From the NCBI GenBank assembly GCA_028279405.1, contig JANQNU010000060.1, positions 248,001 to 312,000 on the forward strand: a DNA stretch of 64,000 bases, given 5' to 3'. Positions 9,268 through 53,015 of this stretch are shown piece by piece. This DNA comes from Phycisphaerae bacterium. GTDB lineage: Bacteria > Planctomycetota > Phycisphaerae > UBA1845 > Fen-1342. The translations under genes and the position numbers were made by a program. How positions within the stretch are numbered: position 1 is the stretch's first letter; every line of letters begins with the position of its first letter. The notes beneath the pieces were generated by a model. That model ran no database searches. It was not told the origin of the DNA and saw only the letters and a list, made by a program, of their open reading frames with translations.

Positions 9268-9280
9268 GGTGATAGGTCAG

Positions 9281-9308
9281 TCCCCCACCCCAAGATGAGG
9301 TGGGGCAC
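9281..9308 (+). repeat. Palindromic repeat copy (CCCCACCCC...GGTGGGG)
   Basis: Same 28-base element as at 25572-25599 with one substitution in the right arm. It sits in the 464-base spacer between the cytochrome operon and valS, a spacer that consists mostly of repeats and holds no convincing gene. Confidence 0.75.
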
Positions 9309-9312
9309 CTGC

Positions 9313-9414
9313 TTGATCCCCTCGCTTGCGCTCGGGGCTCGTTGTGTTGAGGTGCTTGGTTCGCGCCGAGGCCTGTGGCGTAGACACAGGCCTCGTAGAG
9401 GAAGCTTGCTCCCC
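9313..9414 (+). repeat. Composite repeat with GCGTAGA-loop hairpin
   Basis: A roughly 100-base unit alignable with 20204-20305: a CTCGC-TGCGCTCG-GGCTCG block, a TGGTTCG block, a hairpin (9368-9394, 10-bp perfect stem GAGGCCTGTG, loop GCGTAGA) and a GGAAGCTTGCTCCCC block. The loop is conserved between copies while stem bases change in compensating pairs. Confidence 0.7.
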
Positions 9415-9432: not shown

Positions 9433-9580
9433 TCGGGTGGCACTGGCGGCTTGTCCGCCAGTGTTCGGATCACTCGTTCAAGGGCTGGCGCAGGCATGCC
9501 GGTCGCGGCTCCGGTTTGTGAGTGTGACCTCGGATAATCAGCGCACATACACTGGCGGACAAGCCGCCAGTGCCACCCGA
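9433..9580. repeat. MITE-like segment with 31-base perfect inverted repeats
   Basis: Bases 9433-9463 and 9550-9580 are perfect inverted copies of 31 bases, enclosing 86 bases without a gene. Each arm contains its own 9-bp hairpin (CACTGGCGG / CCGCCAGTG). No transposase or clear target-site duplication was seen. Confidence 0.65.
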
Positions 9581-9636: not shown

Positions 9637-12600
9637 TCACTCTTCGATTTGTTGGAGGTTTTCCCGCAGGGTTACCGCCTTCTCCTGCAGTTCGGTGAGC
9701 CGTTCGCGTTCGCGTTGCACGATCGCCGGCGGTGCCTTTGCGACAAAACCCTCATTTGCGAGCTTGCCCTCGATCCCGCGGACCACGCCTGCCAGCTGAT
9801 CGATCTCTTTGCGCAGCCGCTTGCGCTCGATGTCCAGGTCAGCGAGTCCGGCGAGCGGCACGTAGACCTCGTATCCCGCAAAGACCTTGCTCGCGGACTG
9901 CGCCGGCTTGTCGATTCCGGTGCCGATCTCGAGGTTGTCACACTGGCCTAGCCGACAGATCACCGCACGGAGCGGCTCCAGCGTGGCTGCGACCTCGGGG
10001 GTTGCGCGAACGACGCCGTGCGGCAGCGTGCGCAGGACCGTCTCTTTCGCCTGGGCGCGCAGGCCGTTGACGCGTGCGCGGATGTCGCGCAACGCGCGAA
10101 TCACATCCTGCAGCGCTGCCATCCGTCGTTCGGCGTCATCGTTGACCAATGACTCATCCACCTGTGGCCACTCGGCAGCGATCAAGGCCGACCCGGACTC
10201 CGTCAGTGTGCCGATGCCGCGCCAGGCAACGGTCTCGTTCAGCCGGCTCCAGAGCGATTCGGTCACGAACGGGGTGATCGGATGGAGCAAGCGGAGCGTC
10301 TGATCGAGCACCCACGCGAGCACCTGTTTGACGCCCATCCCACCCTTGGAGGTGTCGCTTGATCCGCCCTCGTCGGATGTGTCACCCGATTGCGCTGTCG
10401 CGCCGACCTGGAGCCGCGGTTTGACCAGTTCGAGGTACCAGTCGCAGAACTCGCTCCAGAAGAACGCGTAGAGCCGACCGACGGCGTCGCTGAATTGATA
10501 GCGGTCCAGACGCTGATCGACATCCCGGATGCACGCCTGGAGGCGTGAGAGTATCCAGCGGTCATCGAGCGTCAGGTCGCTCGTTGCAAGCGTACGGATC
10601 GCGCTGCGGTCAAGATCGGCGATACTCGGTATCACCAGGCCGGTTGCCGCCTGCCAGAGCTTGTTGCAGAAGTTGCGGCCCAGCTCGAACCGTTCGGAAG
10701 TGTCGAGCCCGATGCCCAACTCGTCCTTGAGCGTCTTCGGCGCCCAGACCGTCGCGAACTTCTGTTTGCAGCTGCCGCACTTCACTTCGTGGATCTCACG
10801 TGGTGCTTTGTTGTGCGGCACGACTTGGCTGTGCGGCACGAGGTCGTCGCAATGCGGGCAGTCGTAGGAGATCGGGACGCGCGCGTCCTGCGTCTCGCCG
10901 GCCATGCCCGTGAGCGTATATCGCATCGCATCGGTACCGTAGAGCGTGATCAGGTCGACCGGGTCGACGCCGTTGCCGGCCGTCTTGCTCATGCGCTTGC
11001 CGGTGCCGTCCTGCACGACGGGGTGAATGTACACATCGCTGAACGGCACGCGACCGAGATTGTACAGCCCGGTCATGACCATCCGCGCTACCCACAGCGA
11101 GATGATGTCGCGCGCCGTCGATAACACGCTAGTCGGGTAGTAGTAGTCGAGGTCGGCGCTGACCGCTCGCTCGCGCTCGCGGCTCGTCGTGGGCGTCTCC
11201 GAGCCTTCGGGCGACTGAGCTTGCGAGTCTGGCGCCGGCCAGCCGAACGTCGAGTGCGGCCAGAGCGCCGAGCTGAACCACGTGTCGAGCACGTCGGGGT
11301 CCTGCTCGAAGCCGGCTTTTTCGAGCCATGCCTTCAGCTTGCCCGCAGTTTCGGTCAGCGTGTCGCCTCCGCCTGCGTGGAGACAGACGTACCAGTTCGC
11401 GATTCGATCGTCGGTGGCGCTGAGATCTCGAAGCGCGGCCGCTTGCTCGTAAGCATTCGGTGCGCCAGCGATGGTAAATCGTTGACCGTCGTCACGCACA
11501 ACCGTGACGCACGCCTGTCTCGACGTTTCATCTCCAAGCAGCTCGTTCTTGATGGGTTCGTCCGCACCAAGTTTCAGCCACTCATTCCACGTCATCTGCT
11601 TCGACCACACGGGGATTCGGTGGCCCCACCAGAGCTGTCGGCTGATGCACCAGTCGCGCTTCTCTCCGAGCCAGTCGAGGTACGTCTTCGCGTATCGCTC
11701 GGGGTGGAACTGGACGCGGCCGTCGCGGACTGCTTCCATCGCGAGCTCGGCCAGCGACTCCATCTTCACGAACCACTGCTCGCTGAGCATCGGCTCGATC
11801 GGCGTCTTGCTGCGGTCGCTGTGCCCGACCTCGTGCTCGTGCGGCTCGGCTTTCTCCAGCAGTTCGGCCGCTTCCAGGTCCTTCACGATCTGTTTGCGGG
11901 CGGCGAGTCGGTCCTGTCCTGCATACGCGGCGAAGAGCTGCTTGCCCTCCTCGTCGTCGCGGATGCGGCCATCCTTCGTGAGGATGTTGATCATTGGCAG
12001 GTCGTTACGCTGGCCGCATTCGTAATCGTTGGGGTCATGACCCGGCGTCACCTTCACAACACCCGTGCCGAATCGCGGGTCGACGAGGATCGGGTCGGCG
12101 ATGATCGGAATGCGACGATTCACCAGCGGCAGGATCGCGTGTCGGCCGATTAACGCCTTGTAGCGCGGATCCTCGGGGTGGACTGCGACGGCCGTATCGC
12201 CGAGCATCGTTTCCGGTCGAGTCGTTGCAACGATCAGGTGCGGCGTATCGCTCGGCAGCGGTCCGTCGCTGGTGTCCAGTGGGTAGCGGATGTGCCAGAG
12301 GTTGCCTTTGACGGTCTCGTGGACGATCTCGTCGTCGGCGACAGCCGTTTGCAGGTGGGCGTCCCAGTTGACCAATCGCAGGCCACGATAAATCAGCCCG
12401 TCGCGGAACATGCGGAAGAACGTCTGGTAGACGGCGTTGGCGCATTGTTCGTCGAGCGTGAACCGCGTGCGCTCCCAATCGCAGGAGCAGCCCATCATGC
12501 GGAGCTGGTTGAGGATTCGCTGGTTGTACTCTTCCTTCCAGTCCCAGATTCGCTGGACGAGGCCGTCGCGGCCGACCTCATGGCGGGTCTTGCCCTCTTC

Positions 12601-12894
12601 CTCCTTCAGACGACGTTCGACGACCGCTTGGGTCGCGATACCGGCGTGATCGGTCCCGGGCAGCCAGCAGGCGTTGTAACCCTGCATTCGCTTGCGGCGG
12701 ATGAGGACATCCTGCAGCGTGTTGTTCAGCGCGTGTCCGAGGTGCAGGGCGCCGGTGACGTTGGGTGGCGGGATGACGATCGTGTAGGGCTTGCGTCCCG
12801 GGTCCGGCGTCGACCGAAAATAGCCGCCCGTTTCCCAGAAGCGGTAAATCTCGGGCTCGATCGTCTTTGGATCGTATGAAGTGCCCTTGCTCAT
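9637..12894 (-). CDS. valS: Valine--tRNA ligase
   Basis: A 1085-residue cytoplasmic class I aminoacyl-tRNA synthetase that charges tRNA-Val. The HIGH-type signature is PPNVTGALHLGHALN (about residues 40-54) and the KMSKS loop reads KRMSKTAGNG, so the usual Lys-Met-Ser-Lys-Ser is Arg-Met-Ser-Lys-Thr. The editing-domain region and the C-terminal coiled coil (LADLDIERKRLRKEIDQLAG) are present. Three insertions stand out: a Ser/Arg/Glu-rich stretch at about residues 555-580 (ETPTTSRERERAV) encoded by a dispersed repeat module; a zinc-ribbon-like CPHC...CGSC insertion after the KMSKS loop; and a Ser/Gly/Asp-rich segment (about 830-850). It is monocistronic and divergent from the acyl-CoA mutase gene. 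Confidence 0.97.
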   Translation of the reverse strand: MSKGTSYDPKTIEPEIYRFWETGGYFRSTPDPGRKPYTIVIPPPNVTGALHLGHALNNTLQDVLIRRKRMQGYNACWLPGTDHAGIATQAVVERRLKEEEGKTRHEVGRDGLVQRIWDWKEEYNQRILNQLRMMGCSCDWERTRFTLDEQCANAVYQTFFRMFRDGLIYRGLRLVNWDAHLQTAVADDEIVHETVKGNLWHIRYPLDTSDGPLPSDTPHLIVATTRPETMLGDTAVAVHPEDPRYKALIGRHAILPLVNRRIPIIADPILVDPRFGTGVVKVTPGHDPNDYECGQRNDLPMINILTKDGRIRDDEEGKQLFAAYAGQDRLAARKQIVKDLEAAELLEKAEPHEHEVGHSDRSKTPIEPMLSEQWFVKMESLAELAMEAVRDGRVQFHPERYAKTYLDWLGEKRDWCISRQLWWGHRIPVWSKQMTWNEWLKLGADEPIKNELLGDETSRQACVTVVRDDGQRFTIAGAPNAYEQAAALRDLSATDDRIANWYVCLHAGGGDTLTETAGKLKAWLEKAGFEQDPDVLDTWFSSALWPHSTFGWPAPDSQAQSPEGSETPTTSRERERAVSADLDYYYPTSVLSTARDIISLWVARMVMTGLYNLGRVPFSDVYIHPVVQDGTGKRMSKTAGNGVDPVDLITLYGTDAMRYTLTGMAGETQDARVPISYDCPHCDDLVPHSQVVPHNKAPREIHEVKCGSCKQKFATVWAPKTLKDELGIGLDTSERFELGRNFCNKLWQAATGLVIPSIADLDRSAIRTLATSDLTLDDRWILSRLQACIRDVDQRLDRYQFSDAVGRLYAFFWSEFCDWYLELVKPRLQVGATAQSGDTSDEGGSSDTSKGGMGVKQVLAWVLDQTLRLLHPITPFVTESLWSRLNETVAWRGIGTLTESGSALIAAEWPQVDESLVNDDAERRMAALQDVIRALRDIRARVNGLRAQAKETVLRTLPHGVVRATPEVAATLEPLRAVICRLGQCDNLEIGTGIDKPAQSASKVFAGYEVYVPLAGLADLDIERKRLRKEIDQLAGVVRGIEGKLANEGFVAKAPPAIVQRERERLTELQEKAVTLRENLQQIEE
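11161..11186 (-). repeat. Dispersed repeat module embedded in valS
   Basis: These 26 bases are identical to 20204-20229 in a spacer. Extending to about 11192, the same stretch matches, in reverse complement, the spacer at about 52794-52825 with two mismatches. Within valS it is translated as the RERERAV segment between STFGWP and the DLDYYYPTSVL block of the catalytic domain. Confidence 0.85.
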
Positions 12895-20203: not shown

Positions 20204-20305
20204 GACCGCTCGCTCGCGCTCGCGGCTCGCTGTGATGGTTGCCTGGTTCGTGCAAGGGGCCGCGGCGTAGACGCGGACCTCATCAAGGGAGCTTGCTCCC
20301 CGCTC
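20204..20305 (+). repeat. Composite repeat with GCGTAGA-loop hairpin, second copy
   Basis: Aligns along its length with 9313-9414. The hairpin (20257-20279) keeps the loop GCGTAGA, but its stem is GG-CCGCG/CGCGG-CC, so two T-A pairs of the first copy are C-G pairs here. It lies between two paralogous zinc-ribbon genes; bases 20204-20229 are the exact twin of the module inside valS. The remaining spacer (20120-20346) shows no gene. Confidence 0.7.
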
Positions 20306-25441: not shown

Positions 25442-25599
25442 GGCGGGCGAGACGCCCGCCCCACCCATTGATTGGTGCGACGTGCTTGCCGGGGCCCGTG
25501 CCAACGCCACGGGCCCCGGCACCAATCTGGTACCGTCATTCTGAGCAAGGGCGTTTTTTTGCCGATGTTCGTCCCCCACCCCAAGATGGGGTGGGGCAC
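25442..25599 (+). repeat. Cluster of palindromic modules
   Basis: Three modules follow the photolyase stop. GGCGGGCG-AGA-CGCCCGCC hairpin at 25442-25460. A 14-bp perfect stem at 25487-25521 (TGCCGGGGCCCGTG, loop CCAACGC). The 28-base CCCCACCCC/GGGGTGGGG element at 25572-25599, identical to the copy coding for part of the NHL lipoprotein. A partial second GGGCGAGACGCC unit follows near 25608. The 14-bp stem could serve as a transcription end for phrB; a T7 run lies 31 bases beyond it. No gene is apparent in 25440-25721. Confidence 0.75.
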
Positions 25600-25721
25600 C
25601 AGGCGGTGGGCGAGACGCCTGCCCTACCCAGAATGGTTGAGCACCGGCCGCCGATGCCGCGCAAACGGTCTGGCTGAGCACCACTATCGAATAACCGTGC
25701 TCGGGGTGCGAAGACCAGGGC

Positions 25722-52694: not shown

Positions 52695-52852
52695 GCGGGC
52701 GAGACGCCCGCGCCACCCATCAACTGGTGAGACGTTCTTACCGCAGCCTGCGGCCTAGACACGGGCCTTGGTGCGGGACCCGGTGCTCAACACGACGAGC
52801 CCCGAGCGCGAGCGAGGGGTCAGTCCCCGCACCCCAGGATGGGGTGGGGCAC
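52695..52852 (+). repeat. Composite repeat array after lpxD
   Basis: In order: GCGGGCG-AGA-CGCCCGC hairpin (52695-52711), matching 25442-25460; a hairpin with loop GCCTAGA (about 52746-52766), related to the GCGTAGA hairpins but with a weaker stem; an inverted GAGCCCCGAGCGCGAGCGAG block (about 52794-52825), matching the module in valS; and the CCCCACCCC/GGGGTGGGG-type palindrome (52824-52852). The rest of the 324-base spacer (to 53015) shows no gene. Confidence 0.75.
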
Positions 52853-53015
52853 CGTCGGCGATCGATCACCCAACCCGCCCGCAGAGCGCTCGATTTTCGG
52901 GCCGAATGTCGTCACAATAATGGATGGGCGGCGCGGCGACGTCATTGGGAATGGAGCCGGGCGCGCCGCGGATTCCAGAGTCAGGGTCGACCGCAACGGC
53001 GGCCCGGAGTGATCG

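Follow-up and report, generated by a model that had tools for sequence, protein, structure and literature searches.

How a repeat that is scattered between the genes of a planctomycete came to be read as part of the catalytic domain of an essential aminoacyl-tRNA synthetase is the question raised by a 64,000-nucleotide stretch (hereafter the window) of a Phycisphaerae bacterium genome. The gene concerned is valS (positions 9637–12894, minus strand), encoding a valyl-tRNA synthetase (ValRS) of 1085 amino acids that is recognized by NCBIfam TIGR00422 / NF004349 and by Pfam tRNA-synt_1, Anticodon_1 and Val_tRNA-synt_C. Its reading frame is unbroken over all 1085 residues, and a search of the assembly gave a single valS match. 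Alignment to the Thermus thermophilus enzyme (1GAX) and to relatives with a short native linker delimited a segment of 27 residues between the motifs GWP and DLDYYYP (11155–11235, minus strand). In 1GAX these motifs are separated by only four residues (EETE), so that the window enzyme carries 23 extra ones; a preliminary description of the window had rightly held STFGWP and DLDYYYP to be nearly adjacent elsewhere. The same description had ascribed about 20 extra residues to the repeat. The size of the excess agrees with this, but the repeat unit, which spans only about 34 bp, encodes no more than about 11 of these 23 extra residues. The part of the insert upstream of the unit, APDSQAQSPEGSETP, had no high-copy match in the approximately 150 kb of the same genome that were searched.

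The repeat-derived part is a hairpin unit (11161–11195, minus strand), bounded by blastn coverage and by its hairpin layout and encoding TTSRERERAVS. Its core, GAGCCGCGAGCGCGAGCGAGCGG (11163–11185, minus strand), was counted 263 times in the whole 5.6-Mb genome with up to two mismatches allowed, against zero for a reversed-pattern control. An intergenic copy at 20204–20234 (minus strand) is identical to the valS copy over 26 of 26 nt (11161–11186 and 20204–20229) and 94% identical over 31 nt. Another copy, in the opposite orientation at 52791–52823 (plus strand), is 94% identical over 33 nt to the reverse complement of 11159–11191. These are the two similarities from which the preliminary description had started, as 26 common bases and a match of about 32 bases with two differences, and both were recovered. 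In the 52.8-kb copy, compensatory changes at the two differing positions convert the stem CCGC/GCGG into CCCC/GGGG. A diverged copy with a CCCC stem and a GCAA loop lies downstream of valS (9316–9346, minus strand; a weaker match, 81%). The length shared among copies is about 30–35 bp, and divergence starts immediately beyond. Among 30 exact copies, the one in valS is alone in being clearly coding and two more are uncertain, so that the family is mostly extragenic; two copies framed with a sigma-54 activator and a racemase domain (L005 and L018) were not counted, since they may precede the true start codons. The preliminary description was right in that the catalytic domain of an essential planctomycete gene holds, in frame, a dispersed repeat that is mostly intergenic. 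A second dispersed palindromic family, GTCCCCCACCCCAAGATGGGGTGGGGCACC, is present at 2883–2912, 9280–9309, 25571–25600 and 52824–52853, and forms mosaics with the first, for example at 52.8 kb.

The units follow the layout X4-GA-Y2-GNRA-Z2-GA-W4, that is, a 4-bp stem, GA/GA, a 2-bp stem and a GNRA loop. All six stem positions were paired in 56 of 126 skeleton matches in the same genome (280 kb over both strands, a sample enriched for the repeat because it was mostly fetched around copies, which affects neither pairing nor stem variants) and in none of the shuffles. Stems among the fully paired units were CCGC, CCCC and CCCG. The valS unit, with six of six stem pairs and about 34 bp, fits the 20–40 bp palindromic unit of REPs of the RAYT type, RAYT standing for REP-associated tyrosine transposase, and REPs of matching layout (CCGC and CC stems, GTGA or GTAA loops) surround the RAYT transposases of relatives. 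This common layout makes the window element a RAYT-type REP by architecture. No class-3 RAYT was found in the window's own genome; its sole RAYT-like gene (C30:48773) belongs to another class, and no valS-type REP lies within 1.5 kb of it. On its predicted fold, the element is therefore filed here as a REP by structure and not as the proven substrate of a known RAYT.

In the preliminary description the element had been likened to the Rickettsia palindromic elements (RPEs). What holds of the likeness is that both are dispersed palindromic repeats inserted in frame in protein genes, where they create new peptide segments. Kinship found no support: the host phylum is another one, as the sequence family probably is, the unit is of 34 bp, shorter than the RPE-1 type units described in PMC3733652, and the element is linked to RAYT-type REPs. 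Judged from phylum and REP layout, common descent is unlikely.

The insertion was to be timed by comparison of ValRSs, which was done with family and order relatives of the window genome. Differing inserts, mostly hairpins or tandem repeats, were found at the exact valS site in 20 of 21 genera of the family. They comprise octamer hairpins of the GGGATCAA type (G003, G008 and G012) and of the GGCACGAA type (G001 and G019), heptamers AATTCGC (G020) and GACGAAC/GACCAAC (G034), and REP pairs (G006, G022, G036, G046, G049 and G058). In genus g43, three species show three different palindromes at the site. Most genera of families f4 and f8 have a short native linker, and the insert is missing in G011 and in many order relatives. 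Compared with shuffled sequences, folding was far stronger in about 16 of 24 inserts and in none of the native linkers. The repeats that make up the inserts are abundant within their own genomes wherever counted; the GGGATCAA octamer pattern, for instance, gave 86 matches in G003, 105 in G008 and none in many other genomes. An inserted repeat would have been contradicted by relatives in which unrelated DNA codes for these very residues; such relatives were also looked for, and the relatives carry other residues. The comparison yielded no single insertion event to be dated: as far as the alignments tell, nearly every genus has seen the valS site re-colonized by an element of another kind. In G046, one 150-nt REP pair occupies two valS sites in the same frame with 143 of 150 nt identical, a direct sign of in-frame copying. 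Other valS genes of the sample show further peculiarities. In that of G001 (L107), arrays of one 8-mer repeat (RRHEGTEARRHEG-type peptides) occur in frame at four or more separate places, in different loops; that of G040 (L068) has a repeat-rich insertion of 176 residues (SPSAASG and QNSTDSGQ-like repeats) and no RAYT at a second valS site, and that of G019 (L102) has its N-terminal part out of frame, by decay or assembly error.

From these sequences we consider it likely that a RAYT-type REP came to lie in frame in a ValRS loop that tolerates it and is translated with the enzyme, as one instance of a recurrent colonization by REPs and RAYTs in the phylum. Several observations speak against this reading: no valS-type REP lies near the sole RAYT-like gene of the genome, the upstream half of the insert corresponds to no repeat found, a single one of the 30 exact copies is clearly coding, and some relatives have inserts of simple tandem repeats that form no hairpin. 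That inserts keep to a single exact site in almost every genus of the family, and that most of them fold into strong hairpins, could also mean that valS is served by the hairpin in its mRNA or by the peptide gained, through translational pausing, regulation or stability, mobile repeats being just the raw material. Under such selection, neither the unrelated peptides of different genera nor the lack of an insert in G011 and many order relatives would be expected, and no hairpin was found in the inserts of L033, L035, L039, L041 and L045. A function of this kind is the best of the alternatives, and we still judge it unlikely.

The colonization reading extends to whole transposases. In G015, an insert of 343 amino acids at exactly the valS site of the window contains a Y1/RAYT transposase, bordered by the REP peptides SRDRKGAV and PLPHGRGSE. 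Across Planctomycetota, RAYTs were found in frame in valS, purH, alaS, leuS, ileS and some DNA methyltransferases. A second valS site is occupied in G027 (= L239), G428, G258, G432, L280, L282, L284, L302, L303 and L309; the purH site in L234–L238, G036 and others; one alaS site in L281, L298, L299, L306 and L307, and another in L304; leuS in L240 and ileS in G016. The methyltransferases are of the restriction or phage-defence type and include an MmeI-like (L241) and, by eye, a PglX-like enzyme (L222, in G351), as well as L301, where a type ISP enzyme has the RAYT following its specificity domain and the contig ends soon after. At the purH site, RAYTs were present in 13 of about 28 relatives inspected. 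They fall into two classes, each with REPs of its own: class 3 in G036, G032, G006, G013, G049 and, with a damaged HUH motif, G018; and a Y..NP class in G011, G012, G015, G010, G016, G009 and G019. The G019 gene (L316) retains its RAYT behind a broken upstream frame, attributable to decay or to an assembly error. The purH of the window genome itself has no insert. Both valS and purH gave a single match each in nearly all RAYT-related assemblies examined. In a class-wide survey that relied on the gaps separating match segments, the second valS site looked RAYT-bearing in just 2 of about 60 genomes (G258 and G027) and the alaS site in none. With these sites mostly empty, the embedded state is patchy and sporadic outside the purH hotspot. 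Long frames around the RAYTs of G421, G330 and L272 were rejected by eye, as they look like spurious GC-rich frames. AlphaFold2 models of the window ValRS and of a PurH–RAYT protein (L237) were poor (mean pLDDT of 51.6 and 43.8, respectively, with only 5–7 sequences aligned) and were set aside.

These observations bear on a second alternative, in which the insert is nothing more than a ValRS loop of variable length, shaped by drift through replication slippage and template switching, its likeness to repeats reflecting a common local mutational process. Tandem arrays of 7-mers and 8-mers (G034, G003 and G008) could indeed expand by slippage, and the upstream half of the window insert matches no known repeat. 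A dispersed family of 263 copies with covarying stems, a 150-nt unit at two sites of one valS and entire RAYT genes in host sites all call for the transfer of sequence from elsewhere, which leaves local drift with a smaller chance than a function for the insert.

The condition of the embedded RAYTs was assessed in a class-3 survey that retained the best 80 loci from 84,980 species genomes, 21 of which were classed as embedded. Whereas 56 of 59 free RAYTs had a start codon within 20 codons upstream, this was the case for 5 of the 21 embedded ones, most of which lack both a start and a stop codon of their own. Inverted REPs stood on both sides of 20 of 21 embedded and 37 of 58 free RAYTs, compared with 5 of 80 mismatched control pairs. 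The HUH and Tyr-Gln motifs were recovered in nearly all of 27 embedded rows, with four misses when simple patterns were used, and the transposases were identified as Y1_Tnp by Pfam and, below cut-off, as REP_Tyr_transpos by NCBIfam. Their pN/pS ranged from 0.19 to 0.45, with dS near saturation. In a tree, the embedded RAYTs fell into two parts; the valS copy of G015 was sister to an alaS copy (support 98/87), and one methyltransferase copy was nested among alaS copies. From these positions the elements appear to change host gene while the frame is kept.

A third explanation would have the insert removed after transcription or translation, as an intron, an intein or through ribosome bypass, leaving a normal mature enzyme. 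It draws on the location within the catalytic domain of an essential enzyme and on the inverted REPs at the ends of the RAYT units, which could pair in RNA. No catalytic intron RNA (group I or II, or IStron) was matched by Rfam at the gathering threshold in eight loci, and inspection of the purH and valS junctions by eye revealed none of the residues of inteins (N-terminal Cys/Ser; C-terminal His-Asn followed by Cys/Ser/Thr). Furthermore, the frame is open through every insert, the RAYTs are in the frame of the host and dN/dS is low, none of which removal would require, and we hold such processing to be very improbable. Lastly, an assembly or binning artefact, suggested by the preponderance of metagenome-assembled genomes, by the tendency of repeats to break assemblies and by the broken purH frame of G019, is the least credible explanation and is largely refuted already, given that the sites recur across many independent assemblies with low pN/pS and that embedded RAYTs occur in the single-contig genomes G036 and G032 (purH), G428 (valS) and G351 (methyltransferase), which excludes assembly chimeras as a general explanation.

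If RAYT-type REPs do colonize these genes, the core of the valS segment would be a REP hairpin that entered between GWP and the YPTS strand and yields a short peptide on translation. Landing would recur in a few loops: that of ValRS between GWP and YPTS, that of PurH before FIKHTN, one in AlaRS, the editing domain of LeuRS and a position of IleRS near KMSKS. The entrants would be hairpins of simple repeats, single REPs, pairs of REPs (in one gene the same pair was copied to two sites) and complete REP–RAYT–REP units. REPs and the complete units would most likely be seeded by RAYT-type transposition, or by copying of REPs through another route; we infer that a RAYT moved the REP of the window. 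Because the host genes are essential and single-copy, insertions would survive only in frame, free of stops and in a tolerant loop, as the ValRS loop would structurally have to be, and the fact that few loops satisfy all three conditions would account for the recurrence at the same sites. The whole frame would be translated with nothing spliced out and the peptide kept. Some RAYT lineages would have become in-frame residents, mostly with neither start nor stop of their own, expressed through the frame of the host enzyme, and the embedded transposases would be active. A broader proposal, to which we lean with less assurance than to the landing of the REP, is that such lineages occupy a splicing-free, intein-like niche: kept by purifying selection as domains in the frame of single-copy ValRS, AlaRS, LeuRS, IleRS and PurH and expressed from that frame, they would move REPs and themselves between the few permissive loops. 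The REP of the window would then be a minimal, transposase-free trace.

In this way an isolated repeat in valS becomes part of a system. RAYTs are often regarded as domesticated single-copy genes. Were the proposal true, essential enzymes would serve as home and expression platform for mobile DNA that has no splicing device, opening a route to new protein segments and whole domains; the great length of ValRS and PurH in these bacteria would be explained, and it would become possible to test whether RAYTs retain activity and by what means their targets are chosen.

Part of this has precedents. In the portion of PMC3733652 (BMC Genomics 2013) considered, GTAG/CGTC REPs lie inside ORFs, often paired and encoding about 20–30 residues, tRNA synthetase genes outside Rickettsia are among the targets, and two Xanthomonas species have different REPs at about the same recB site. 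On that basis the window element, taken by itself, is one more case of something already known. A complete transposase in the host frame is not described in that portion, whereas here the valS and purH sites are reused across genera and accommodate whole RAYTs. RAYTs, or TnpAREPs, of class 3 were described as Y1 HUH transposases with a Y...Q motif, present in Planctomycetes and flanked by high-copy hairpins (PMC6006769), features shared by the embedded ones. That study found REPs in frame inside some RAYT genes and left out proteins of unexpected length, taking them for fusions or annotation errors; here, the long proteins are the phenomenon itself, which cautions against dropping such fusions. 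Coding palindromes in mitochondrial genes of Nematomorpha indicate that long inverted repeats are tolerated in protein genes, the abstract of PMC6649704 mentioning neither a transposase nor a dispersed REP family. Like inteins and homing elements, embedded RAYTs are mobile, in frame at fixed sites of essential single-copy enzymes and independent of a start and stop of their own. Unlike them, they encode an HUH transposase and not a homing endonuclease, the searches for splicing residues and intron RNA were negative, and the host enzyme is presumably functional while still carrying the insert. A search of the open-licence PMC literature returned no description of an aminoacyl-tRNA synthetase or a PurH that contains a whole RAYT; as far as that literature shows, what is new is the apparent population, recognized from genome sequences, of entire RAYTs that form in-frame domains within essential enzymes at reused sites.

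Two further observations concern RAYTs and the surroundings of valS. One locus (L261:3950–5665) encodes a RAYT fused in frame N-terminal to a class II lysyl-tRNA-synthetase-like (EpmA-like) protein. In the window, a perfect 32-nt inverted repeat, TCGGGTGGCACTGGCGGCTTGTCCGCCAGTGT, lies just downstream of valS (9433–9464 and 9549–9580, with 84 nt between the arms), and the same type of sequence, read as LADKPPVPPG, also adjoins the only RAYT gene of the genome (L081).
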